From Candidatus Omnitrophota bacterium (GTDB taxonomy: Bacteria; Omnitrophota; Gorgyraeia; Zapsychrales; Zapsychraceae): 43,458 bases of DNA. Shown in pieces: positions 12,334-42,675 of the stretch. Made by a program: the position numbers and the translations under genes. Location of the stretch: contig JADFXQ010000011.1 of NCBI GenBank assembly GCA_015233495.1, positions 1 through 43,458 of the forward strand, written 5' to 3'. The first letter of the stretch is position 1, and each line of letters begins with the position of its first letter. A model generated the notes under the pieces. It had not been told where the DNA came from. It saw only the letters and a list, made by a program, of their open reading frames with translations, and did no database searches.

Positions 12334-12457
12334 ATGACCGGTCGTGGGGGCGCTTCTCTCCGGCGGCAGGCAGGTGGGCGCCCGTTGCCGTGCAGTGATT
12401 CCGTAAACGAGCTTAATAGCGGTCAGCTTCGGGTTATTTAATTGGGAGAAACATCTA

Positions 12458-12756: not shown

Positions 12757-12837
12757 GTGCGTAGGGGCCGAGCTTGTCTTGGCCCGTTGAGTCGGGCGGA
12801 CACCTGCCTACCGGCAGCAAGGTCCGCCCCTACGCAC
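12757..12837. repeat. Nested palindromic repeat element
   Basis: The outer arms GTGCGTAGGGGC (12757-12768) and GCCCCTACGCAC (12826-12837) are perfect inverted repeats. Inside, GGGCGGAC (12794-12801) pairs with GTCCGCCC (12822-12829), and CTGCC (12804-12808) with GGCAG (12813-12817). It resembles a REP/MITE-like extragenic palindrome. Related GC-rich pieces occur at 12350-12388, 22543-22589 and inside the exported-protein gene at 37991-38070; the 15-mer GTGGGCGCCCGTTGC is identical at 12374 and 22575. Confidence 0.7.
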
Positions 12838-22542: not shown

Positions 22543-22589
22543 GCCCCAACATATTTATTGTCGGGGCGCCCCTTGTGGGCGCCCGTTGC
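22543..22589. repeat. GC-rich palindromic repeat between cysK and mnmA
   Basis: GCCCC (22543-22547) pairs with GGGGC (22563-22567), followed by the self-complementary GGGGCGCCCC (22563-22572) and GGGCGCCC (22577-22584). The 15-mer GTGGGCGCCCGTTGC (22575-22589) is identical to 12374-12388. It belongs to the dispersed palindrome family of this window. Confidence 0.55.
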
Positions 22590-27822: not shown

Positions 27823-29053
27823 TTGCAATAATTTTTACGCGTCGTGCGAACGGGTGTTTGATCCGTCTTTGCGGGGCAGGCCGGTGGTGGTCTTGTCCAA
27901 CAATGACGGGTGCGCGATTGCCCGGTCAGAGGAGGCCAAGGATTTGGGCATCAAGATGGGCCAGCCGTTTTTTGAATGGGAGCGGTTGGCCGCGCTCCAC
28001 GATATCCGGGTTTTTTCGTCGAATTTCGCGTTGTACGGCGATATGTCCCACCGGGTGATGACGATCCTGCGGGATTTCAGCCCCGATTTGGAAATCTATT
28101 CGATTGACGAGGCGTTTTTGTTGTTGAACGGCATGAATATCGACCATGAGAAATATGGCCGCGAGATTCGCCAACGGGTTTTGCAATGGACGGGTCTGCC
28201 GGTGTCCGTCGGGATTGCGCTGACCAAGACGCTCGCCAAGGTCGCCAACCATATTGCCAAGCGGCAAAAATTCCGCGGCGGCGTGAGTTGTTTGTTGGAC
28301 GCGGCGGTTTGTGACGCGGTTCTCGCGGAAACTCCGGTCCAGGATCTCTGGGGCATTGGCCGGCAGAAAATGAAATTGTTAAACAGTTATGGCATTATCA
28401 ATGCTTTGCAGTTAAAGGACGCGGATGATGTTTGGGTGAAAAAACATTTGTCCGTGATGACCCTGCGCACCGTGTATGAATTGCGCGGGATCAGCTGTGT
28501 CGGATTTGAGCAGATTCCGCCGGACAAAAAGACAATTGCCGCGACCCGGTCGTTTGGCACAGAGGTTTCGAGTTTTGAGGAATTGAACGAGAGTCTGGCC
28601 GCGTATACGGCGCGGGCCGCTGAGAAAATGCGGGAGCAGGACTGCGGCGCCGGGTCGATGCTGATTTTTGTCGAGACTAGTCCGTTTAAGGAGAATTATT
28701 ACGCGAACAGCGCCTCGATTGCGATCAATCCGGTCAGTGGGTACACGCCGGTTTTGATGAAATACGCCGCAGCCCTGCTTCGCCAAATTTATCGCGACGG
28801 TAAAATTTATAAACGGGCCGGCGTGATTCTGGGCGATTTTCAAAAAGCTGACAGCGGTTCTTACGAATTGTTCGCGGACACCCGCCGGGAGGCCCAGCGG
28901 GAAAAATTGATGGCAGCTTTAGACGGGCTCAACCGCCAAGAAAGACAAGTTGTGTTCGGCCAAGAAGGACTCGCCAAGCCGTGGTTTATGCGGCAGAGTC
29001 GTAAATCTCCGAGTTTTTCGACCCGGATTAGCGAGTGTTTGAAGGCCCGGTAA
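27773..29053 (+). CDS. umuC: Y-family DNA polymerase V subunit UmuC
   Basis: The 426-residue protein starts [20 protein letters not shown], then [20 protein letters not shown] and [16 protein letters not shown]. The catalytic acids lie in ALIDCNN and SIDEAF. A palm/fingers core and a helix-hairpin region ([11 protein letters not shown]) follow, with the C-terminal little finger ([11 protein letters not shown]). It performs error-prone translesion synthesis with UmuD'. ATG 27773 was chosen because the upstream codons are out-of-frame umuD; the two genes overlap by 50 bp, which couples translation. The size matches full-length UmuC. Confidence 0.94.
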
Positions 29054-32565: not shown

Positions 32566-34515
32566 ATGCCTATGGAAGCTACCTTGGAATCAGCGCAGGA
32601 ACGGACGGGTCTGATAACGCCCGAGGATACGCGCCTGTTTAAAGCCGGCCGTCATACGCGGCTTTATGAAAAATTAGGGTCGCATATCATTCATGCCGGC
32701 GGTGCCGCGGGAACCAATTTCGCGGTCTGGGCGCCGCATTGCCGGCAGGTTTCCGTAATAGGGGATTTCAACGGCTGGGACCGGGCCGCGCATATTTTGA
32801 AACCGCGTTCGGATGGCTCGGGGGTCTGGGAGGGTTTTATTCCGGATGTGCGTCAGGGGGCTTTGTATAAATATCATATAGTTTCGGCGGTTAATAATTA
32901 TCAGGCGGATAAACGCGATCCTTTTTCGTTTCACTGCGAAGTGCCGCCCAGCCGGGCCTCGGTGGTTTGGGATTTGAGTTACGCGTGGAAAGACGGGCAA
33001 TGGATGCGCCGGAGGTTGTTAAAAAATAACCGCCGGTCGCCGCTGTCCATTTATGAAATGCATTTTGGTTCTTGGCGCCGCGATCCTAAAAATCCGCATC
33101 GTTTTATTTCCTATGACGAGATGGCTTTAGACTTGATCCGTTATCTTAAGGACATGGCTTTTACCCACGTCGAGTTTTTGCCGTTGACCGCGCATCCGTT
33201 GTATGAATCTTGGGGGTATCAGACGGACGGTTATTTCGCCCCGACTTCCCGTTACGGCACGCCGCAGCAGCTCATGGCGTTGATTGATTTGCTGCATCAA
33301 AATGGGATCGGGGTGATATTGGATTGGGTGCCGTCGCATTTTCCGACGGACCGCCATGGTTTGGCCTATTTTGACGGGACGCATCTTTTTGAGCACGCGG
33401 ATCCGCGGCAGGGTTTTCATCCGGAGTGGAAAAGCAGTATTTTCAATTATGGCCGGCATGAGGTCAAAGATTTTCTGATCAGCAGCGCTTTGTTTTGGTT
33501 GGATCAGTATCATATTGACGGGTTGCGCGTCGACGGCGGATCATCGATGTTATATTTGGATTACGCACGCAAACGCGGTGAATGGGTGCCGAATAAATAC
33601 GGCGGCCGCGAAAATTTGGAAGCCGTGGATTTTTTAAGACAGTTGAACGAAACCATCCGCGCCAAATATCCTGACACCCAGATCATGGTTGAGGAGGCTA
33701 CGTCTTGGCCAAAAGTTTCCCGGCCGGTCGCGGACGACGGGCTCGGGTTTGGAATGAAATGGGACATGGGATGGATGCATGACACGCTGAAATATTTTGC
33801 TTTGGACCCTTCCCGGCGGCAGCACGGTCATAACCATTTGACGTTCAGCATATGGTATTTTTATTCGGAGAATTTTCTTTTGCCTTTGTCGCACGATGAG
33901 GTGGTGCACGGCAAGGGTTCGCTTATCCGGAAAATGCCGGGTGATGATTGGCAGAAATTCGCGAATTTGCGTTTGCTTTTTGCTTATATGTTCGGTCATC
34001 CGGGTAAAAAGTTAATTTTTATGGGCGGCGAAATCGGGCAATGGGCAGAATGGAATCCGCATAAGAGTATTGATTGGCATTTGCTCGAGCACAGCCGGCA
34101 CGAGGGACTGCGGCGGCTGGTGAGAGATTTGAACCGGGTTTACCGGGATCATCCCGCCTTGTATGAAAATGATTTTATGCCGGAAGGGTTTGAGTGGGTG
34201 GACCTTAATGATGCCCGGCAGAGCGTGATTTGTTTTTTGCGTAAAGGCCGGACTGCGGATGATACGGTTTTTGTTGTCGGTAATTTTACGCCGGTGACGC
34301 GGCCGCATTATCGCGTCGGCATCCCGGCGGACGGTTATTGGCAGGAGATCCTTAACAGCGACGCCCAGGAATACGGCGGCGCGGGAGTCGGGAATTATGG
34401 CGGCGTCACTGCCCAGCCGTTTCCCTGGCACGGCCGGCCGTTTTCCTTATCCCTCACTCTCCCGCCCTTGGCAGTCCTCTTTTTCCGACGGAAAAAAGAA
34501 GAAATTCATGCGTAA
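32566..34515 (+). CDS. glgB: 1,4-alpha-glucan branching enzyme GlgB
   Basis: The 649-residue GH13 enzyme has an N-terminal CBM48 domain (about 45-140: TNFAVWAPHCRQVSVIGDFN), then LSIYEMHFGSWRR, VEFLPLTAHPLYESWGYQ, the nucleophile region IDGLRVDGGSSMLYLDYA, the acid/base VEEATSWPKVSRPV and PLSHDEVVHGKGSL. The C-terminal beta domain ends LPPLAVLFFRRKKEEIHA. It adds alpha-1,6 branches to glycogen. The usual DAV after the nucleophile Asp is GGS here, as DGGSSM, which is a minor variant. The last codons and TAA lie in the left arm of a large inverted repeat. The start could be ATG 32566 or 32572; neither has a good ribosome site. Confidence 0.93.
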   Translation: MPMEATLESAQERTGLITPEDTRLFKAGRHTRLYEKLGSHIIHAGGAAGTNFAVWAPHCRQVSVIGDFNGWDRAAHILKPRSDGSGVWEGFIPDVRQGALYKYHIVSAVNNYQADKRDPFSFHCEVPPSRASVVWDLSYAWKDGQWMRRRLLKNNRRSPLSIYEMHFGSWRRDPKNPHRFISYDEMALDLIRYLKDMAFTHVEFLPLTAHPLYESWGYQTDGYFAPTSRYGTPQQLMALIDLLHQNGIGVILDWVPSHFPTDRHGLAYFDGTHLFEHADPRQGFHPEWKSSIFNYGRHEVKDFLISSALFWLDQYHIDGLRVDGGSSMLYLDYARKRGEWVPNKYGGRENLEAVDFLRQLNETIRAKYPDTQIMVEEATSWPKVSRPVADDGLGFGMKWDMGWMHDTLKYFALDPSRRQHGHNHLTFSIWYFYSENFLLPLSHDEVVHGKGSLIRKMPGDDWQKFANLRLLFAYMFGHPGKKLIFMGGEIGQWAEWNPHKSIDWHLLEHSRHEGLRRLVRDLNRVYRDHPALYENDFMPEGFEWVDLNDARQSVICFLRKGRTADDTVFVVGNFTPVTRPHYRVGIPADGYWQEILNSDAQEYGGAGVGNYGGVTAQPFPWHGRPFSLSLTLPPLAVLFFRRKKEEIHA

Positions 34516-34769
34516 TGTGCCGCGCAGACTGTTTCCGCAAATTTTTTTGTCGCACTGAGCTTCATCCCCCGCGTCTCAAGACGCGGGAGACCGCTGTTTT
34601 TTCGCGGAACAGCGACCGCGCCTAACTCGCACCGCTGCATCGCTACGCGATGCAGCGGCACTCAAACAGAGGCGCGGATGGAAATTTTTGTCGCTGTTCC
34701 GCGAAAAAACAGCTTTTGCTCAAAGCGACAAAAAAATTCACGGAAACAGTCTGCGCGGCACATTACGCA
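34509..34769. repeat. Large nested palindrome at the 3' end of glgB
   Basis: Outer 45-bp arms (34509-34553 and 34725-34769) differ at two bases. Inside lie perfect 24-bp arms (34593-34616 and 34690-34713), and two small hairpins: CCCGCGTCT/AGACGCGGG (34568-34587) and CGCTGCATCGC/GCGATGCAGCG (34633-34657). The left arm contains the glgB stop codon, and the right arm lies just before the next gene at 34788. No transposase is encoded. It looks like a MITE or compound palindromic element that inserted at the gene end. Confidence 0.85.
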
Positions 34770-34787: not shown

Positions 34788-36578
34788 ATGAAAACTTTTC
34801 TATCTTTCATGTTAGCCGCGCTTTGTTTTGTTGTTTTCTTCCAGGTCCGCGAGAACGCGTTTCTTTCCTTGGATGATGATCTGTATGTTTCGGAAAATCC
34901 ATATATCCGCGACGGGTTGACGGTTAATGGTTTACGTTGGGCGTTTACGGCGGGGCTTCTGCATACTTCGAAGCATACGGATTATTGGCAGCCGTTTACT
35001 TTTATTTCGCGGATGCTGGATTTTCAATTTGTGGGCGGCAAAGCGGCTGGGCATCATTGCGTTAATCTGGTTTTGCATATCCTGAATGTTCTGTTGTTAT
35101 TTTTTTTGTTGCAGCGATCCACCGGGCGGTTGTGGCCCAGTTTTGCCGCGGCCTGCCTGTTCGGCGTTCATCCGTTGGCGGTGGAGCCCGTGTCATGGGT
35201 GACGGCGCGCAAGGATGTTTTGGGTTGGTTTTTTGGATTGTTGTGTTTGCACGCTTATCTGTCGTATCGACGATCATCTGGCGGGAAATGGTACGCGGGA
35301 TGTCTGGCCGCTTTTGTGGCCGCTTTGTTGTCTAAGCCGGCGATGATTGTTTTGCCGGGGTATTTGGTGATTGTGGAGTTTTGGGTGTTAAGGCCCCCAC
35401 TCCTCCCCGCCCCCTTACCCAACATCACGAGGGGGGAGGGAGTAAGCCGGGTGATTCCGTTTTGTTTGATCGCTTTGCTTTACGCGGGAATTCCGTTTAT
35501 CAGTCAGCGGGATGTGTTTCCTTATAAGAGCGGGGTTGAAATTGTGTCGCACGTGTTTGACCGGTATTTCTTTTTTTTGCAAAAGTTTTTTTGGCCGGCG
35601 CATTTATGGATTTATGGCGGAATGGTTATGCCGGTATTTAATCCCTTTATTCTCACGGCAAAAATTTTTTCGCTGGCTGGAATCAGCATCCTGGCTTATC
35701 GAATGCGGCAAAGATTTCCTTTTTTATTGGCCGGCTGGCTTTGGTTTGTGGTTGGCCTTATTCCGGTCGCGGGATTAGAATGGCCGGCGGACCGGTTTAT
35801 GTATGTCCCGATGGTTGGGTTGATTGTGATGGTTGTCTGGTCAGGCGCCGAGTGGCAGAGAGGTTGGCCAAAACCGGCAGGGGTTTGGGTGGCGACGATT
35901 AGTGTCTTGATCGCGGTTTGTGCCGGGCTGTCCTTTCAGCAAGGTCGTTTTTGGCGGGATTCCCCAACGCTTTTTGCCCATGCTTTGGCAATGTATCCGG
36001 ACAATTACTGGGCGCATAATTCTTTAGGCGTGACTTTGACGGGCGCGAATAAATTAGACGAGGCGAAGCGGCATTTTCAAAGGGCGATTGAACTGCGGCC
36101 GAACGATGCCAAACAATTGACCAATATGGCTTCGTTGTTGATTAAACAGGGCCAATATGAGCCGGCATATCCCTACGCGAAAAAAGGATATGAGCTCGAT
36201 CCTTTTTTTCCGGCGGCGATCAATAATCTGGCTTTGGTTTTTGAGCGCCGCGGGAATATGGAAGACGCGGTTTGTTTATATTTGAAAGGCTTAGCCAACA
36301 ATCCGCAAGATCCGACTTTGCGGGAGAACTTCGCGAATTTTTTAAAAAATGCCGGACAGAACGGCCCGCGCCAGGACGGTGTTTACACGCGGCATTATCA
36401 AAACAAAGCGGTATCGCAAGAAGTGAAGTTTGTTCAGGGAAAGATGGAAGGATTCTACCGGGTATATTTGCCGGATGGAGATTTAGTGCTCGAGCAAGAA
36501 TATAAAAATGGGATTCCGGTTGGCAAGCCCAAGCGGTATTATCAAAAAAAAGTGTTGGGGGATTATGTCCCGCAATAA
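34788..36578 (+). CDS. TMTC-like membrane protein with TPR and MORN-like C-terminus
   Basis: The 596-residue protein has about ten membrane helices in its first 390 residues. An acidic loop (FLSLDDDLYVSENPYI) follows helix 1, and FGVHPLAVEPVSWVTARKD is the hallmark of TMTC/GT-C-like proteins. TPR repeats follow (about 405-520: WAHNSLGVTLTGANKLDEAK). The end is a YwqK/MORN-like stretch (EVKFVQGKMEGFYRVYLPDG). TMTC proteins are O-mannosyltransferases in animals; bacterial homologues are probably lipid-linked-sugar glycosyltransferases of exported proteins. ATG 34788 was chosen after GAGGGGCGAGAG; upstream codons lie in the palindrome. A GC-rich palindromic insertion at 35394-35450 encodes PPLLPAPLPNITRGEG. 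Confidence 0.78.
   Translation: MKTFLSFMLAALCFVVFFQVRENAFLSLDDDLYVSENPYIRDGLTVNGLRWAFTAGLLHTSKHTDYWQPFTFISRMLDFQFVGGKAAGHHCVNLVLHILNVLLLFFLLQRSTGRLWPSFAAACLFGVHPLAVEPVSWVTARKDVLGWFFGLLCLHAYLSYRRSSGGKWYAGCLAAFVAALLSKPAMIVLPGYLVIVEFWVLRPPLLPAPLPNITRGEGVSRVIPFCLIALLYAGIPFISQRDVFPYKSGVEIVSHVFDRYFFFLQKFFWPAHLWIYGGMVMPVFNPFILTAKIFSLAGISILAYRMRQRFPFLLAGWLWFVVGLIPVAGLEWPADRFMYVPMVGLIVMVVWSGAEWQRGWPKPAGVWVATISVLIAVCAGLSFQQGRFWRDSPTLFAHALAMYPDNYWAHNSLGVTLTGANKLDEAKRHFQRAIELRPNDAKQLTNMASLLIKQGQYEPAYPYAKKGYELDPFFPAAINNLALVFERRGNMEDAVCLYLKGLANNPQDPTLRENFANFLKNAGQNGPRQDGVYTRHYQNKAVSQEVKFVQGKMEGFYRVYLPDGDLVLEQEYKNGIPVGKPKRYYQKKVLGDYVPQ
35394..35450. repeat. In-frame palindromic insertion in the TMTC-like gene
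   Basis: ACTCCTCCCC (about 35399-35408) and the G-rich GGGGAGGGAGT (about 35433-35443) form an imperfect inverted repeat encoding a Pro-rich loop (RPPLLPAPLPNITRGEG) between two membrane segments. The sequence resembles an extragenic palindrome that entered the gene without breaking its frame. Confidence 0.45.
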
Positions 36579-36641
36579 ATTGTGCCGGTCACAATTTATC
36601 GTTGGTTGCGCAGTGTCTCAACGCTATAAAGGAGATTGCTT

Positions 36642-37232
36642 ATGCTGAGAAAGATGTTTTCACTCTCGGGATTTTGGCTTGTTCGGCGGACAGTGATGCT
36701 GCTGATTCTTGGATTTTTAGTGTTACTTATAGCGCCTGGGGTTCAGGCGGCCACGCATCACATTGGGGATGCCATCGAAGATGCCGTGGGATACTTAAAC
36801 CAAGGCAAGGCGCATATTGAAGGCGGCCGTTATGATCAGGCGATTTCCGTTCTCAACTATGCTTTATCGATAAATCCGGTTTCCGCGCCGATTTATCTGC
36901 AAAGAGGCATCGCTTATTTAAAAAAAAATCAATATGATCAAGCGATTGAAAATTTTGATAAGGCCATCCATTATAAATCGGACGATCCCCAGGTCTATTT
37001 ACGGCGCGGCGAGGCCTATTTCCTGAAAGGCGATTTTGATTCCGCGATCTTAGACTACACCAAAGTTACCCAACTGGTCCCGGATCAAGGAGAGGCTTAT
37101 ATCAAATTGATTTCTACCTATTTGAAGAAAAAAGATCTGCTCCAAGCTCGGGTAGCCGCGAAAAAAGCGGCGGAACATAACATAACTTTGCCGGATGATA
37201 TCAAAGCAGCGTTGAAGAAAAAAGAGGCTTAA
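36642..37232 (+). CDS. Exported TPR protein
   Basis: The 196-residue protein has an N-terminal signal or anchor (RRTVMLLILGFLVLLIAP, possible cleavage after VQA at about 37), then four TPR-like helix pairs (GGRYDQAISVLNYALSI, KNQYDQAIENFDKAIHY, KGDFDSAILDYTKVTQL, KKDLLQARVAAKKAAEH). It is probably a periplasmic scaffold. ATG 36642 is 7 bases after AAAGGAG. It lies between the TMTC-like gene and the large exported protein, both also linked to the envelope. The partner is not known. Confidence 0.8.
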   Translation: MLRKMFSLSGFWLVRRTVMLLILGFLVLLIAPGVQAATHHIGDAIEDAVGYLNQGKAHIEGGRYDQAISVLNYALSINPVSAPIYLQRGIAYLKKNQYDQAIENFDKAIHYKSDDPQVYLRRGEAYFLKGDFDSAILDYTKVTQLVPDQGEAYIKLISTYLKKKDLLQARVAAKKAAEHNITLPDDIKAALKKKEA

Positions 37233-37266
37233 AAGAAAGCGTTTTCCCGAAATCTTCCCGGACACC

Positions 37267-37294
37267 TTGTCATCTCCCTCCTATCGGATATACT
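37267..37294 (+). promoter_or_regulatory. Promoter placing the start site at the ATG (leaderless mRNA candidate)
   Basis: TTGTCA (37267-37272), a 16-bp spacer and TATACT (37289-37294) put the predicted transcript start at about 37301-37302, on the ATG itself. No Shine-Dalgarno is present. Confidence 0.55.
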
Positions 37295-37301
37295 TAAAGT
37301 G

Positions 37302-40169
37302 ATGATAAAAGTTATCCGCCAATTCCGCTGTGCCGCCGTATCCCGCTGGATGGTGGGGACGGTGCTGGCTTCGTTTATGGTCTCCCTGCCGGGGCCGGGT
37401 TATGGCCAGTCATTTTTGAACCTGCCGCGGCCGGGCGCGATGATTCAGCCTTCGCCTTTGTTCGAGCCGCCTTTGATTAAAGGGATTGTCATTCATCCGG
37501 AAAACGGCTTGCGTTTTGATTTTCTGATTGATCCGGGTAATAAAGAATTTCAACGGCAAACCCAAACCGTTAAAAATAAAGAATATCAGAAACTCATCAA
37601 ATATTTTATCGCCGCCTTGACTGTCCCGGAGAAAGATTTATGGGTGAATTTGTCGCCTTATGAAAAGAACCGGATGATACCGGAATCTTTCGCGAAAACG
37701 GAGATGGGCCGCGATCTGTTAGGCCAGGATTATATTCTCAAGCAGGTAACCGCGTCTTTGATGTATCCGGAAAAAGAATTGGGCAGGAGGTTCTGGGACA
37801 AAATATATAAGGAAGCGAAAGCCAAGTTCGGGACTGAGGACATTCCGGTAGACACATTCAACAAAGTATGGATCATTCCGGATAGAGCATCGGTATATGA
37901 ACACGGTAACGCGGTGTTTCTGGTGGAGAGCCATTTGAAGGTGATGTTGGAGGAGGATTATGTGGCATTGGAAAAACATTCCGGGATCGCGGGACGGGCG
38001 CCTGCAAGGGGCGCTCCTACGGGTGACGATACGGCGGGTGGCGTGGCGCCCCTCGTGGGTACCCGCGGAGAAACAACACACAACTTGGCTTCTCAAATAG
38101 TCCGCGAAGTGATTATCCCCGCGATTGAAAAAGAAGTTAACGAAGGCAAGAATTTTGCGTTATTGCGCCAGATCAATGATTCTTTGATTTTAGCAATTTG
38201 GTACAAAAAAGTCCTGAAAGAAAGTCTCCTCGGCAAAATCTACATCGACCAAGCCAAGACCCAAGGCGTGCATCAGCCCGACTTTCGGGACAATGAAAAA
38301 ATTTACAATCAATACGTCGAAGCGTTCAAGCAGGGCGTGTTTAATTACCTTAAAGAAGAAACCGATCCGGTCACGGAAGAAACCGTGTCCCGGACATATT
38401 TTTCCGGCGGATATACGGCCGCGCAAAGTAGTCCGGTGATTAAAGCGGTAGCTTTAAGCTCTGCCGCGCTGTTGCGATGGGCAGAAACGCCGATGAATAT
38501 AGAGGTTGTGTTAGAAGGCGCTGGTCCAACATCAACAAAGTCAAACAGTTCTCCGGCAGTAGATCAAGAAGATTACAAAACACGCAAGGCGCAAGCCCAA
38601 CAGGCAATAGACGCGGCGCAAGTGGTATTGGAGGACACAGTTAAAAAATTTGAGGAGCAAATCAAATGGGCTGGAAATGGAAAAATAAAAGTTTTAGCAG
38701 AGGATTGGGAGATAAGGGGAAAGTACAGCATTGTTTCTGGAGGCTTGCCGATAGCTGGTGTAATTGACAGTGGTAATATTGTTCACTTGGAAAACGTTGT
38801 TAATAGTGTTTTGTGGTATTTTGGTTTTAAAAATGAGCCGGCGGTGTATATGGGACGTGTACAGGATAAATATCAATGGGCTACGCCGCCTCCCACATTT
38901 ATTCGAGAATTAGCTGAATGTCTGCCTATAAGATCGGGCATGAATGATGAAAGAGCAAAAAAGGCCTTAAGTTTTCTTTTGAATTATTTTAAGGATCGTG
39001 GGTGGATGATTGCTGATTTTGTTGATTATGAATTCAATCTTTATGATTTGAATGCCAAAGAAATACTCAGGAGGGTTCGATATGGCCAGCATTCCGGCTT
39101 AGGCGCGGTTTGGCATGGTCCTGGGGAAATTCCGGAATCGATTAAGAGGTTGGCTAAAGTATTTGGGGATTTTGAAGAAGCGCAAGCCGCCTTAAAGGCT
39201 ATAGAAGATGAAAAATGGGATATAACTATTACGGAAGCAGATGTTGCAGAAGCGGTTCTTGCCCAAGCGCAAAGATCAGCGGATCGGTCGCTGGCAAACC
39301 CCGAGGGTCCAAATGATCAAGCGGTGAAAGATTATATGTTGCTGGATGAACAGGGCAGAAATAAAATTTTTGATGAGCAATATGCCGCGTATCACAGCTT
39401 AAATCGATTTTTAGCCTGGAAGGAGCGTAAAGCCGTTGTTGTTTTATTACTGCGATATTTGGCAGAGGAAATCGCGGAAACCAAACATGTCACGCCGGAA
39501 ATTTCCGCTCGGTCAGCGGTGCTGAGGGCTTTTTCACGTCAAGCGGCGCGTCAGGTCAGCGGACTGCCTGGTTTGAGCGCGAAAGAGGAAAAGTTTAAAT
39601 TTTTACGGGGGCAAGCCGAGCAAATACGTAAAGAGGCGATGTATCGCGCGTGGGCTGAGCAAGCAATCAACGGATCGTCACACGGAGAAGCCGCGGGCGC
39701 TCATCCAGAACAAAGTGTTTCTGCTGCGCAACAAGGCGCAGAATCCGGGCAAAATCCCGGCGCTGTAGCCGGGCAGGCAGTAGGAGCAGTGCCAGAGCAA
39801 GCAAATCCTGACGCTGCGGCAGGACAATCAGTTGGACCAGCGCCTGCCGGCCAAGACGGGAAAGCCCTGATCAATGATTTGGAGGAGATTCTGGATATTG
39901 GTCCGTCCGCAGAGGCGCCTAATTCGGAACCCGGACGAGTCGCGGCTACTCCGGTCGGCGGTATTGATCTGCAATCCGCTTCGAGCGCTTTGCAGATCAA
40001 GCGCGACAAAAACGGCGCGCCTTTGCCCGTGCAATTTCAGGATATTCCCAACATCCGCATCGAAGGGCTGACGCCCGTCATCATCCATTCCTCGCCGGTT
40101 CCGGCGCAAAATCTTCGCCTGCTCTTGGGGTTTAAGGACGCAGCATCAGCCACTGCTTTGCAATCGTAA
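37302..40169 (+). CDS. Large exported protein, Omnitrophota-type, function unknown
   Basis: The protein of about 955 residues has a signal peptide (WMVGTVLASFMVSL, cleavage near GYGQ at about 36). A Pro-rich segment follows (LNLPRPGAMIQPSPLFEPP), then IKGIVIHPENGLRFDFLIDP. I recall this N-terminal block from large exported proteins of Omnitrophota. The middle (about 60-380) is charged and helical. A region near 410-640 contains YKTRKAQAQQAIDAAQ. A low-complexity Gln/Gly/Ala/Pro linker occupies about 790-860 and a conserved-looking tail ends RLLLGFKDAASATALQS. No enzymatic motif was recognised. A palindromic repeat inserted in frame at 37991-38070 encodes GRAPARGAPTGDDTAGG. Start is ATG 37302 (GTG 37299 also possible). 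Confidence 0.75.
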   Translation: MIKVIRQFRCAAVSRWMVGTVLASFMVSLPGPGYGQSFLNLPRPGAMIQPSPLFEPPLIKGIVIHPENGLRFDFLIDPGNKEFQRQTQTVKNKEYQKLIKYFIAALTVPEKDLWVNLSPYEKNRMIPESFAKTEMGRDLLGQDYILKQVTASLMYPEKELGRRFWDKIYKEAKAKFGTEDIPVDTFNKVWIIPDRASVYEHGNAVFLVESHLKVMLEEDYVALEKHSGIAGRAPARGAPTGDDTAGGVAPLVGTRGETTHNLASQIVREVIIPAIEKEVNEGKNFALLRQINDSLILAIWYKKVLKESLLGKIYIDQAKTQGVHQPDFRDNEKIYNQYVEAFKQGVFNYLKEETDPVTEETVSRTYFSGGYTAAQSSPVIKAVALSSAALLRWAETPMNIEVVLEGAGPTSTKSNSSPAVDQEDYKTRKAQAQQAIDAAQVVLEDTVKKFEEQIKWAGNGKIKVLAEDWEIRGKYSIVSGGLPIAGVIDSGNIVHLENVVNSVLWYFGFKNEPAVYMGRVQDKYQWATPPPTFIRELAECLPIRSGMNDERAKKALSFLLNYFKDRGWMIADFVDYEFNLYDLNAKEILRRVRYGQHSGLGAVWHGPGEIPESIKRLAKVFGDFEEAQAALKAIEDEKWDITITEADVAEAVLAQAQRSADRSLANPEGPNDQAVKDYMLLDEQGRNKIFDEQYAAYHSLNRFLAWKERKAVVVLLLRYLAEEIAETKHVTPEISARSAVLRAFSRQAARQVSGLPGLSAKEEKFKFLRGQAEQIRKEAMYRAWAEQAINGSSHGEAAGAHPEQSVSAAQQGAESGQNPGAVAGQAVGAVPEQANPDAAAGQSVGPAPAGQDGKALINDLEEILDIGPSAEAPNSEPGRVAATPVGGIDLQSASSALQIKRDKNGAPLPVQFQDIPNIRIEGLTPVIIHSSPVPAQNLRLLLGFKDAASATALQS
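37991..38070. repeat. In-frame palindromic repeat inside the large exported protein gene
   Basis: GGGCGCCTGCAAGGGGCGCT (about 37998-38017) and the opposite-oriented GGCGCCCCTCGTGGGTACCC (about 38045-38066) are diverged inverted copies. They encode a Gly/Ala/Pro-rich loop (residues about 231-258) absent of any motif. It belongs to the same GC-rich family as the extragenic repeats at 12374 and 22575. Confidence 0.5.
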
Positions 40170-40259
40170 CAATTGATTCGGAGCATCTATATCCAATTTG
40201 GACAGCAATAGATTCGGATATAAATATATCCAAAATTTGATGTTTGTTTTTTGGAATGC

Positions 40260-40265
40260 TATACT
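40260..40265 (+). promoter_or_regulatory. -10 box very near the MATE start
   Basis: TATACT (40260-40265) lies 8 bp before ATG 40274, and no ribosome site is present. This is a second candidate leaderless start. A convincing -35 was not found (TTGATG at 40237-40242 gives about 17 bp). Confidence 0.4.
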
Positions 40266-40273
40266 GCAGACCA

Positions 40274-41710
40274 ATGAAAAATCATTCGTGCCGGTCACTA
40301 AATATATCCCCCGGCGGGGTCAGAGAGATGGTGGCCTTGGCCTTGCCTATGGTGGTGTCGCACAGCTGCGACACAGTGATGACCTTCACGGACCGGTTGT
40401 TTTTGTCGCGGCTGGGGCCGGATATGATGAACGCGTCTATGCTGGGGGGATTGACCGCGTTTATGATGATGACGTTTTTTCTGGGTCTCATCGGATATTC
40501 CACGGCTTTGGTAGCGCAATATTTGGGCGCTGGCCAGCCGAGCCGTTGCGCGAAAGTGACTACGCAAGCTTTGTTGATCGCCGTGGCCGCGTATCCGTTG
40601 ATTTTGGCTTGCCGGCCTTTGGCGCATCAGTTGTTTGTGTTTATGGGGATATCCTCCGGGCAATTGGCAGCCCAGAAAGTGTATTTTGATATTTTATTGT
40701 ATGCCGCGATTATCGGGCTGGGCCGCGGCGCCTTAAGCGGTTTTTTCAGCGGGATCGGCCGGACGCGGATTGTTATGGCCGCGTCTTTGACCGCGATGGC
40801 GGTCAATGTGGTTGGGAATTATGTTTTGGTATTCGGGAAATTCGGTTGTCCGGCTTTTGGGATTCGCGGCGCGGCTTATGGCACGATTATCGGCGGAGCC
40901 AGCGGGCTTTTGATTTTAGTTGCCGCGTATCTGAACAAGCGCAACCGCGAGGAATATCACCTGGGGCAAGCGTTTCATTTTGATTCCGGGTTAATGCGTC
41001 AACTTTTACGGTTAGGAATGCCGACTGGCTGCGAGATGTTTCTCAACCTTTTGGCCTTTGACGCGATTGTGATGATTTTTCACGCGGTTGGCCCGGTGGC
41101 GGCTACGGCTTCGACGATTATGTTCAACTGGGATATGGTTTCGTTCGTGCCGCTGATTGGCGTGGAGATCGGGGTAACGAGTTTAGTCGGACGGTATATG
41201 GGCGGCAGACAGCCGCAGATCGCGCATCGGGCGGCGATTTCGGGTTTAAAATTGGGATTGGCCTTTTCCGCGGGTATTCTGGTATTATTTATTGGGTTTC
41301 CGGCCGCCTTGGTTGACTTGTTTCATTCCGGCGGGAATAACGCGCTGTTTATTCAGGCCAAACCTTTGGCGATTTTCATGCTGCGGGCCGCTTCGCTGTA
41401 TGTGCTGATTGAAGCGGTGTTTGTGGTTTTTATCGGCGCGCTGCGCGGCGCCGGCGACACGTTCTGGGCCATGGGGCTATCGGTGTCTTTGCACTGGGTT
41501 TTGGCCCCGGTCTTGTTTTTGATGCTGCGGATATGGAAAATGCCGGTGGAAACCGGATGGCTGACCGTGGTTTTTCTCTTTATGCTATTTTCGATATTCG
41601 TTTATCTGCGGTATCAGAGCGGGCATTGGAAAAAAATTCAGGTAGTGCCGATCCAAGCGCCAGGCATGGCGCGGGTTATAGATGATTTTCACGAGACAAC
41701 GGATTTGTAA
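40274..41710 (+). CDS. MATE-family efflux transporter
   Basis: The 478-residue protein has twelve membrane helices in two related halves, each starting with a typical MATE segment: REMVALALPMVVSHSCDTVM, then RQLLRLGMPTGCEMFLNLLA. FLSRLGPDMMNASMLGGLTA and GALRGAGDTFWAMG also match the family. MATE pumps export drugs or metabolites using Na or H gradients. ATG 40274 was chosen because the preceding frame is promoter sequence. It stands between the exported protein and a flavoprotein gene (12 bp gap to the latter), suggesting co-transcription with the PNPOx-like gene. Confidence 0.92.
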   Translation: MKNHSCRSLNISPGGVREMVALALPMVVSHSCDTVMTFTDRLFLSRLGPDMMNASMLGGLTAFMMMTFFLGLIGYSTALVAQYLGAGQPSRCAKVTTQALLIAVAAYPLILACRPLAHQLFVFMGISSGQLAAQKVYFDILLYAAIIGLGRGALSGFFSGIGRTRIVMAASLTAMAVNVVGNYVLVFGKFGCPAFGIRGAAYGTIIGGASGLLILVAAYLNKRNREEYHLGQAFHFDSGLMRQLLRLGMPTGCEMFLNLLAFDAIVMIFHAVGPVAATASTIMFNWDMVSFVPLIGVEIGVTSLVGRYMGGRQPQIAHRAAISGLKLGLAFSAGILVLFIGFPAALVDLFHSGGNNALFIQAKPLAIFMLRAASLYVLIEAVFVVFIGALRGAGDTFWAMGLSVSLHWVLAPVLFLMLRIWKMPVETGWLTVVFLFMLFSIFVYLRYQSGHWKKIQVVPIQAPGMARVIDDFHETTDL

Positions 41711-41722
41711 GGAGACGACATT

Positions 41723-42190
41723 ATGCTCACTGAAAAAATCAATAAGTTGCTGCTGAAACAAAAAGTCGTGACTGTCGCGTCGGCGGATTCTAACGGCAGG
41801 CCGACGGCCGCGCCCAAATTCGTGGTCGCGATTGAGCGCAACTGTATTTATCTGGTTGATTATGTGATCGGTAAAACGTTTGACAATTTCAGCAAAAATC
41901 CCCTTGTCTCGCTTTCGTTTTTCGATGAAGAGGATTTAACCGGGTATCTCCTCAATGGGACAGTAGTAATATTGACAAGCGGACCGGAATTTGACGTCTG
42001 GATGAAAGAAGCGCAAAAAAAAGAAATCGACCTGACGATCGAGCGGGTGATTAAAGGCATCCAAAAAGGAAAAAAACACGCGAATTTTGATTTTGTTTCA
42101 CCGGAACACCGGGTTATTTTTAAAGTCAACGTCAATGAAGTGGTGGAAATCAGCTCCGGTGGGAAATTGCGGCGAGAAAATTATAAGTAA
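41723..42190 (+). CDS. PNPOx-like flavin-binding protein
   Basis: The 155-residue protein has the split-barrel of pyridoxamine 5'-phosphate-oxidase-like flavoproteins: VVTVASADSNGRPTAAPKFV, CIYLVDYVIGKTFDNFSKNP and VSLSFFDEEDLTGYLLNGT. There is no signal. Members reduce small molecules with FMN or F420, or bind haem; the substrate here is unknown. AAGGAGA precedes ATG 41744 or 41723. It overlaps no gene, follows the MATE gene by 12 bp and ends before a strong terminator. Confidence 0.8.
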   Translation: MLTEKINKLLLKQKVVTVASADSNGRPTAAPKFVVAIERNCIYLVDYVIGKTFDNFSKNPLVSLSFFDEEDLTGYLLNGTVVILTSGPEFDVWMKEAQKKEIDLTIERVIKGIQKGKKHANFDFVSPEHRVIFKVNVNEVVEISSGGKLRRENYK

Positions 42191-42197
42191 AGCGACT

Positions 42198-42235
42198 GGC
42201 GCGCTTCCCGGGAAGCGCGCCGGTTGTAAGTTTTT
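42198..42235. terminator. Strong hairpin, bidirectional terminator
   Basis: GGCGCGCTTCCC (42198-42209) and GGGAAGCGCGCC (42210-42221) form a perfect 12-bp palindrome. A T run follows at 42231-42235. It sits between convergent genes and can serve both strands. Confidence 0.75.
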
Positions 42236-42243
42236 AATCTAGG

Positions 42244-42675
42244 TTAGCAGAGCTTGGCAATGGTTTGCAGGACTTCATCATTGCGGAACGGTTTCATGAT
42301 GGTTGCTTCCGCCCTGGGGCGCGCGGCCGGGTTGGGCAGCTGGGCGGCGTTGGCGAGATTAGAAGCTGCGCGGCTCTCCGGCGCCGGAGGGGCGAGCGGC
42401 GCGGGGGTCCCGGCCGATTTGTAGCCGCTGATCAGTGCCACTTTCACGCTAGGCGAGCTCTGTTTGATCCGCGCTAAAATATCCTCGCCTTTTCCTGCCG
42501 GGATTTGGTTGTCCAACAATACCAAGAAGATATTTTTGTCGTTTTTCAGGATTTGCAGGCATTGATCCGCGCTATGGGTCAAGATCAAATCGTATTTATC
42601 GCTCAAAAGCAGTTTCAGTGATTCCGCGGTATTTTCTTCGTCGTAGACAATCAGGATTTTTTTGGCCCGGATCAC
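42244..42675 (-). CDS. Response regulator with Ala/Pro-rich insertion
   Basis: The 143-residue receiver has phospho-acceptor Asp55 (VLLDNQIP), acidic residues YDEEN at 11-15 (replacing the usual DDE), ALISGYKS and MKPFRNDEVL with the conserved Lys. Between ALISGYKS and ATIMKPF lies an extra loop of about 33 residues rich in Ala and Pro (GTPAPLAPPAPESRAAS...). It is encoded by a very GC-rich stretch (42305-42420). The loop is in the place of alpha 4, so the surface that contacts partners is altered. It starts 10 bp after the XRE-cupin gene and is probably in its operon. Confidence 0.8.
   Translation of the reverse strand: MIRAKKILIVYDEENTAESLKLLLSDKYDLILTHSADQCLQILKNDKNIFLVLLDNQIPAGKGEDILARIKQSSPSVKVALISGYKSAGTPAPLAPPAPESRAASNLANAAQLPNPAARPRAEATIMKPFRNDEVLQTIAKLC

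Follow-up and report, generated by a model that had tools for sequence, protein, structure and literature searches.

The window analysed here is a stretch of 43,458 nucleotides from a Candidatus Omnitrophota bacterium (contig JADFXQ010000011.1 of assembly GCA_015233495.1), and is contig 14 of a 2.1-Mb, 111-contig metagenome-assembled genome (MAG) that is about 91% complete. Three of its genes, for a TMTC-like tetratricopeptide repeat (TPR) membrane protein, an exported protein and a single-domain response regulator, carry stretches that an earlier note on this DNA had described as palindromic or GC-rich insertions, each adding a loop without breaking the frame. All three stretches are indeed GC-rich and in frame. 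Only the insert in the exported protein (37991-38070, within its 956-aa open reading frame, ORF) is palindromic, and sequence comparison confirmed it as a decayed pair of GTAG-tagged repetitive extragenic palindromic (REP) units, arranged as in REP doublets forming hairpins (REPINs). The insert lies in a hypervariable loop, which in other members of the same protein family holds different repeats. Features are listed in Table 1; below, G000 is the genome of the window, other G labels are genomes of relatives, and C and L labels are contigs and loci.

Table 1. Repeat units, loops and genes discussed in the text (positions in the window).
Feature	Position	Strand	Remarks
Pro-rich inter-helix loop, TMTC-like TPR membrane protein	35394..35450	+	Gene 34788-36578; lineage-specific, not shown to be a repeat
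Exported-protein gene, 956 aa	37299..40169	+	Expanded Omnitrophota family without Pfam/NCBIfam model
N-terminal domain used as query	37443..38519	+	About 330 aa conserved across the family
Hypervariable loop, EEDY to REVIIPAIEKEVN	37962..38102	+	pLDDT about 30 in model
Decayed GTAG-type REP unit GTAGGAGCGCCCCTTGCAGGCGCCC	37996..38020	-	Hairpin; protein reading GRAPARGAPT
Second decayed REP unit GGCGCCCCTCGTGGGTACCCGC	~38045..38066	+	Opposite orientation; protein reading APLVGTR; aligned with intact copy in paralog L074
Intergenic REP-type unit	12344..12383	+	Same family; one head substitution
Intergenic REP-type unit	12794..12833	-	Exact pattern match
Intergenic REP-type unit	22560..22584	+	One head substitution
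Pro/Ala-rich stretch in place of helix alpha-4, degenerate receiver	42305..42420	-	Gene 42244-42675 (-); lineage-specific, not a repeat

The repeat is a GTAG-tagged, REP/REPIN-like palindrome of the form GTAGGGGCGCCCC-N-GGGCGCCC, with an intact consensus of 25 bp (GTAGGGGCGCCCCTCGTGGGCGCCC). Over the whole of G000, the pattern GTAGGGGCGN{4,30}CGCCC has 47 exact matches, against 1 for the reversed pattern used as a control. Joining neighbouring exact matches gave 34 merged units. About 20 of these are not in long ORFs; the exported-protein family has 5 in its loops, two of which (on C40 and C44) are sisters, and another 9 lie in further long ORFs. Inverted pairs are frequent in this genome, eight of them measuring 74-75 bp end to end and several being longer. 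The GTAG head, the 25-bp palindrome and the inverted dimers together fit the GTAG-tagged REPs described by Di Nocera et al. (2013, PMC3733652) and the layout of REPINs (PMC8049555), and a literature search on the letters of the repeat returned unrelated primers only. Palindrome strength was measured as the folding energy of single-stranded DNA, expressed as a z-score against shuffled sequence. As a palindrome, the window's own insert has decayed (z -1.5), while intact double units at the same site in two paralogs reach about -10. It would be possible to read all three stretches as ordinary Pro/Ala/Gly low-complexity linkers in a GC-rich context, with no mobile element involved, as appears true of the other two proteins; the window's own REP dimer is also too decayed to stand out by folding. 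For the exported protein this is contradicted by the strongly folding palindromes at the same site in paralogs, by the 47 genomic copies and by the intact copy to which the window's insert can be aligned, and as an account of all three stretches we consider it very improbable.

GTAG-REP units were also seen inside other very long frames of G000 that lie outside the loop family (C16:17718, 27027 and 27438; C76:5860-6014; C67:25343; C23:185332; loci L107, L108, L152, L151 and L116). Two hairpins resembling miniature inverted-repeat transposable elements (MITEs) each occupy two sites in the sampled genome, TACGGCGAGCTTTC... at L365:14283-14330 and L375:9157-9204, and GACAGCGCCCTATT... at L373:2469-2535 and L377:6550-6616. 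Pyrimidine-rich hairpins were absent from a scan of a 442-kb genome sample.

The exported protein has an N-terminal hydrophobic signal-like segment, matches no Pfam or NCBIfam model and belongs to a family almost confined to records named Candidatus Omnitrophota. Its N-terminal domain gave 38 matched stretches in G000, where some genes contribute two, and as many as 49 in relatives, and is present in 31 of the 32 genomes of the bacterial family, in open frames that range from a few hundred codons to 6,160 in length. Two direct-repeat matches, at 28417 and 29772, were considered as further paralogs and rejected, the genes there encoding unrelated polymerase-like and porin-like proteins. The loop runs from a conserved EEDY to the next helix (SQIVREIIIPEIEKEVN / REIIIPEIEKEVN) and is 28-69 residues long, with a mode of 37, in 157 members. 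Mean identity between homologues is 0.04 in the loop compared to 0.60 and 0.69 in the 35 residues on either side, by one alignment measure that is harsh on gapped sequences yet the same for the loop and both flanks. The finding that the earlier note had named as counting against its proposal, loops of conserved sequence in homologues, was thus not what the alignment gave. In AlphaFold2 models the loop lies between two helices with a predicted local distance difference test (pLDDT) score of about 30 in the window's protein, and below 50 in a homologue without the insert; confidence over the models as a whole is modest (mean pLDDT 63-65). The modelling suggests that the loop is likely to be disordered. 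Searches for a known fold gave no meaningful match (Foldseek best E 0.41; VIA-align best Z 3.4, with a root-mean-square deviation of 12.8 over 140 residues). A distant family member, L096 (G000 C23:55885-56817), has a possible repeat-like stretch, KPLPREAWGGEGG, elsewhere in the protein, before a KATLKVML strand.

Intact GTAG units fill the loops of the copies on C44, C89, C93 and C90 of G000. The same REP DNA appears there as VGAPLVGAR, RGAPRGRP, TGAHEGRPYT or GRAPTRGAPT, depending on the frame and strand in which it is read, and the likeness is therefore one of DNA homology or mobility rather than of peptide homology. In other genera the same loop contains other GTAG hairpins (G002, G006 and G023), palindromes of DSRLRGND type (G006) and VIPAKAGIQ type (L312), a repeat of ARNEVTKQS type (L221), and strings of direct repeats. 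The DSRLRGND palindrome is dispersed in G006, where 4 of its 31 exact copies coincide by coordinates with family matches. In L312, the VIPAKAGIQ-type repeat is a clean addition of 13 aa relative to the near-empty sites of L299 and L307; an exact empty site for the GTAG unit itself was not found. Insertion of repeats into genes as linkers that the protein tolerates therefore holds for the exported protein, whose loop takes different repeat families, and is not supported for the TMTC-like protein and the response regulator, whose stretches match no repeat.

The contents of the loop turn over between close paralogs. In G006, L177, L180 and L183 share 96-99% amino acid identity on both flanks and have unrelated loops, and L249 and L221, with flanks 92-94% identical, have a REP loop and an ARNEVTKQS loop, respectively. 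Nucleotide identity in the flanks of such pairs is 81-94%, and copying was therefore not very recent. Judging from these sequences, unrelated loops between such paralogs would need complete replacement, not mere substitution. L156 and L158 keep the same loop. When REP-bearing loops were mapped on trees built without the loop, they required five changes in G000 and eight in G006, of which well-supported branches force five and four; these were quick trees with unreliable branch lengths.

Exact REP units are about 17-fold denser in the loops than in the intergenic DNA of G000. At the intergenic density, 0.28-0.32 units would be expected in loops, and 4 independent ones were observed (P 2-3e-4), with the sisters on C40 and C44 counted once and the window's own decayed copy excluded; the comparison was chosen post hoc, with the pattern already seen, and rests on few events and on a crude gene caller (coding fraction 91.3% in the 442-kb sample). 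Within those limits, the density in loops is more than tolerance alone need produce. This excess suggests a further possibility, namely that palindrome uptake into an exposed loop is selected, as a crude form of antigenic or specificity variation, possibly with targeted insertion. The large size of the family, the signal-like segment and the complete turnover of the loop between conserved flanks agree with such diversification. However, the analysis gave no sign of surface exposure or of a function, no solved fold was matched, the excess comes from a small number of independent events (four), and loss may be more frequent among intergenic copies. We regard selection of this kind as quite unlikely.

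Exchange between paralogs must also be considered. One whole cassette, ESRATARDLAASHNVGAGFPRP...GRGNRAPT, is common to L173, L177 and L206, whose domains belong to different clades, and the window combines a domain that groups with that of L073 and a cassette that aligns with the one in L074. These cases suggest that cassettes are exchanged. Furthermore, in G006 every exact paired unit of the GGGG/GCGG subtype, the subtype of the L173/L177/L206 cassette, is inside a family loop (nine of nine), which is better explained by gene-family copying or gene conversion than by repeated transposition from a dispersed pool. Recombination might even suffice by itself, with a hypervariable loop shuffled among paralogs by gene conversion and REPs as passengers that arrived once or a few times. 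However, this would leave unexplained why cassettes are made of repeats that these genomes also carry scattered at other sites, why paralogs of G000 differ in frame and orientation, and why L312 has a clean insertion relative to L299 and L307. Recombination is therefore unlikely to be the whole explanation.

We propose instead that the loop acts as a sink in which palindromes land, decay and are replaced, with some exchange between paralogs; this is our best account of the data, to which we give a probability of roughly 0.6. In the window, a GTAG-tagged REP dimer would have landed in the disordered linker between two helices of the exported protein. Such a linker would have almost no sequence constraint beyond keeping the frame, and would act as a sink for that reason. 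Dispersed repeats of the host genome, short palindromes among them, would land there, probably by transposition, survive if the frame stays open, decay, and then be replaced by the next repeat. The loop would thus be nearly neutral in function, and cassettes would probably also pass between paralogs by gene conversion.

Several observations weigh against this proposal. The copy at the contig end of C40 (G000 C40:6-835; L089 and L130) has an intact GTAG unit in its loop and is split there into two frames, which shows that insertion does not always leave the frame open. About 150 of the 202 loops contained no nameable repeat in a rough signature scan. The confinement of the nine G006 units to family loops counts in the same direction. 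In addition, the REP-associated tyrosine transposase (RAYT), a Y1 transposase that is usually REP-flanked in REPIN systems, had no match in G000 (model PF01797, in a MAG about 91% complete). PF01797 is present in 27 of the 32 genomes of the bacterial family, and among relatives there is no correspondence between having it and how abundant the GTAG pattern is. We therefore rejected RAYT as the mover of the GTAG units. Given the completeness of the MAG, it is possible that a RAYT copy has been lost or was left unassembled. A broader claim, that the loop is a preferred and possibly selected landing site for unrelated palindromes across this Omnitrophota family, and that uptake together with cassette exchange is a general way of diversifying the exported protein, is doubtful.

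The other two stretches appear to be separate, ordinary lineage-specific low-complexity loops. The one in the TMTC-like protein has 2 extra residues relative to the two nearest homologues and about 8-10 relative to most others; from so small a difference to its closest relatives, it looks like a replaced loop more than an added one. In a homologue from another genus, L039 (G015 C8:15845-17419), a different insertion, RPACPPRQAKAAGRGILPLTGFPH, occupies the same inter-helix loop, which therefore tolerates changes in length. In the response regulator, the stretch is a net gain of 23 aa that replaces helix alpha-4 of the receiver and is absent in 19 of 19 aligned homologues. This receiver looks degenerate from its sequence, an Asp of the acidic pocket being changed to Tyr (IVYDEE compared to IVDDEE in relatives). 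Both stretches were considered as repeats and rejected. The folding energy of the first equals that of shuffles (z 0.01), and the second is GC-rich, yet no more palindromic than its composition gives (z 0.34). A search of the whole genome gave no second copy of the TMTC-like stretch (best other E about 1) and no other copy of the response-regulator stretch below an E of about 0.1. The gap between the end of the upstream gene (34515) and the start of the TMTC gene is occupied by a MITE-like element (34509-34769), which consists of a 52-bp inverted repeat (92%) with a nested 24-bp perfect inverted repeat, and which extends with its left arm into the end of the upstream ORF.

How do these features compare with known systems? 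GTAG-tagged REPs are short, GC-rich, GTAG-headed palindromes, mostly intergenic, frequently in inverted dimers and sometimes in frame in genes (PMC3733652). The units described here agree in being short palindromes (25 bp, within the 20-40 bp of the class) with an unpaired GTAG end (the copy in the window being decayed), in being dispersed in many copies with most merged units outside long ORFs, and in their frequent inverted dimers. They differ in their hosts: the known ones are scattered single genes, many of them for DNA repair, whereas here one loop of a many-copy paralogous family holds several unrelated repeat families. A small precedent for a shared site is given by the different REPs found at about the same place in recB of two Xanthomonas species (PMC3733652), a paper in which Omnitrophota are not mentioned. 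The recurrent 74-bp units, which occur between genes as well as in loops, resemble REPINs (PMC8049555) in joining two inverted 25-bp palindromes by a short spacer. Rickettsia palindromic elements (RPEs; Ogata 2000, 2002, as summarised in PMC10969869) are likewise palindromic repeats in frame in protein-coding genes, apparently tolerated. As described there, however, RPEs are about 150 bp long, have a conserved peptide ORF and occur in unrelated genes, in contrast to the 25-75 bp units here, which are read in several frames and are concentrated in the loop of one family. The suggestion that such insertions are rare in bacteria needs qualifying in view of the RPEs and of the GTAG and CGTC REPs inside genes of several species (PMC3733652). 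With open frames reaching about 6,160 codons in relatives, some members of the exported-protein family may be among the giant, poorly annotated ORFs reported for Omnitrophota (PMC10066038); a word search of that text gave no mention of repeats, palindromes or hypervariable loops. We found no report in the open-licence literature of one loop of an expanded paralogous family repeatedly taking up unrelated repeats. In-frame palindromes themselves are known, and the new part would be the recurrent landing loop common to such a family.

For annotation, these data are a warning that peptides such as VGAPLVGAR, TGAHEGRPYT and DSRLRGND can be repeat DNA and not conserved motifs. If the recurrent landing site is real, nature would have provided an experiment in turning short palindromic repeats into protein, replicated in dozens of paralogs per genome and in several repeat families, with each change datable from the intact flanks. 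One could then test directly whether palindromes read in frame are no more than tolerated or contribute to protein diversification, which work on RPEs and intragenic REPs has not settled.
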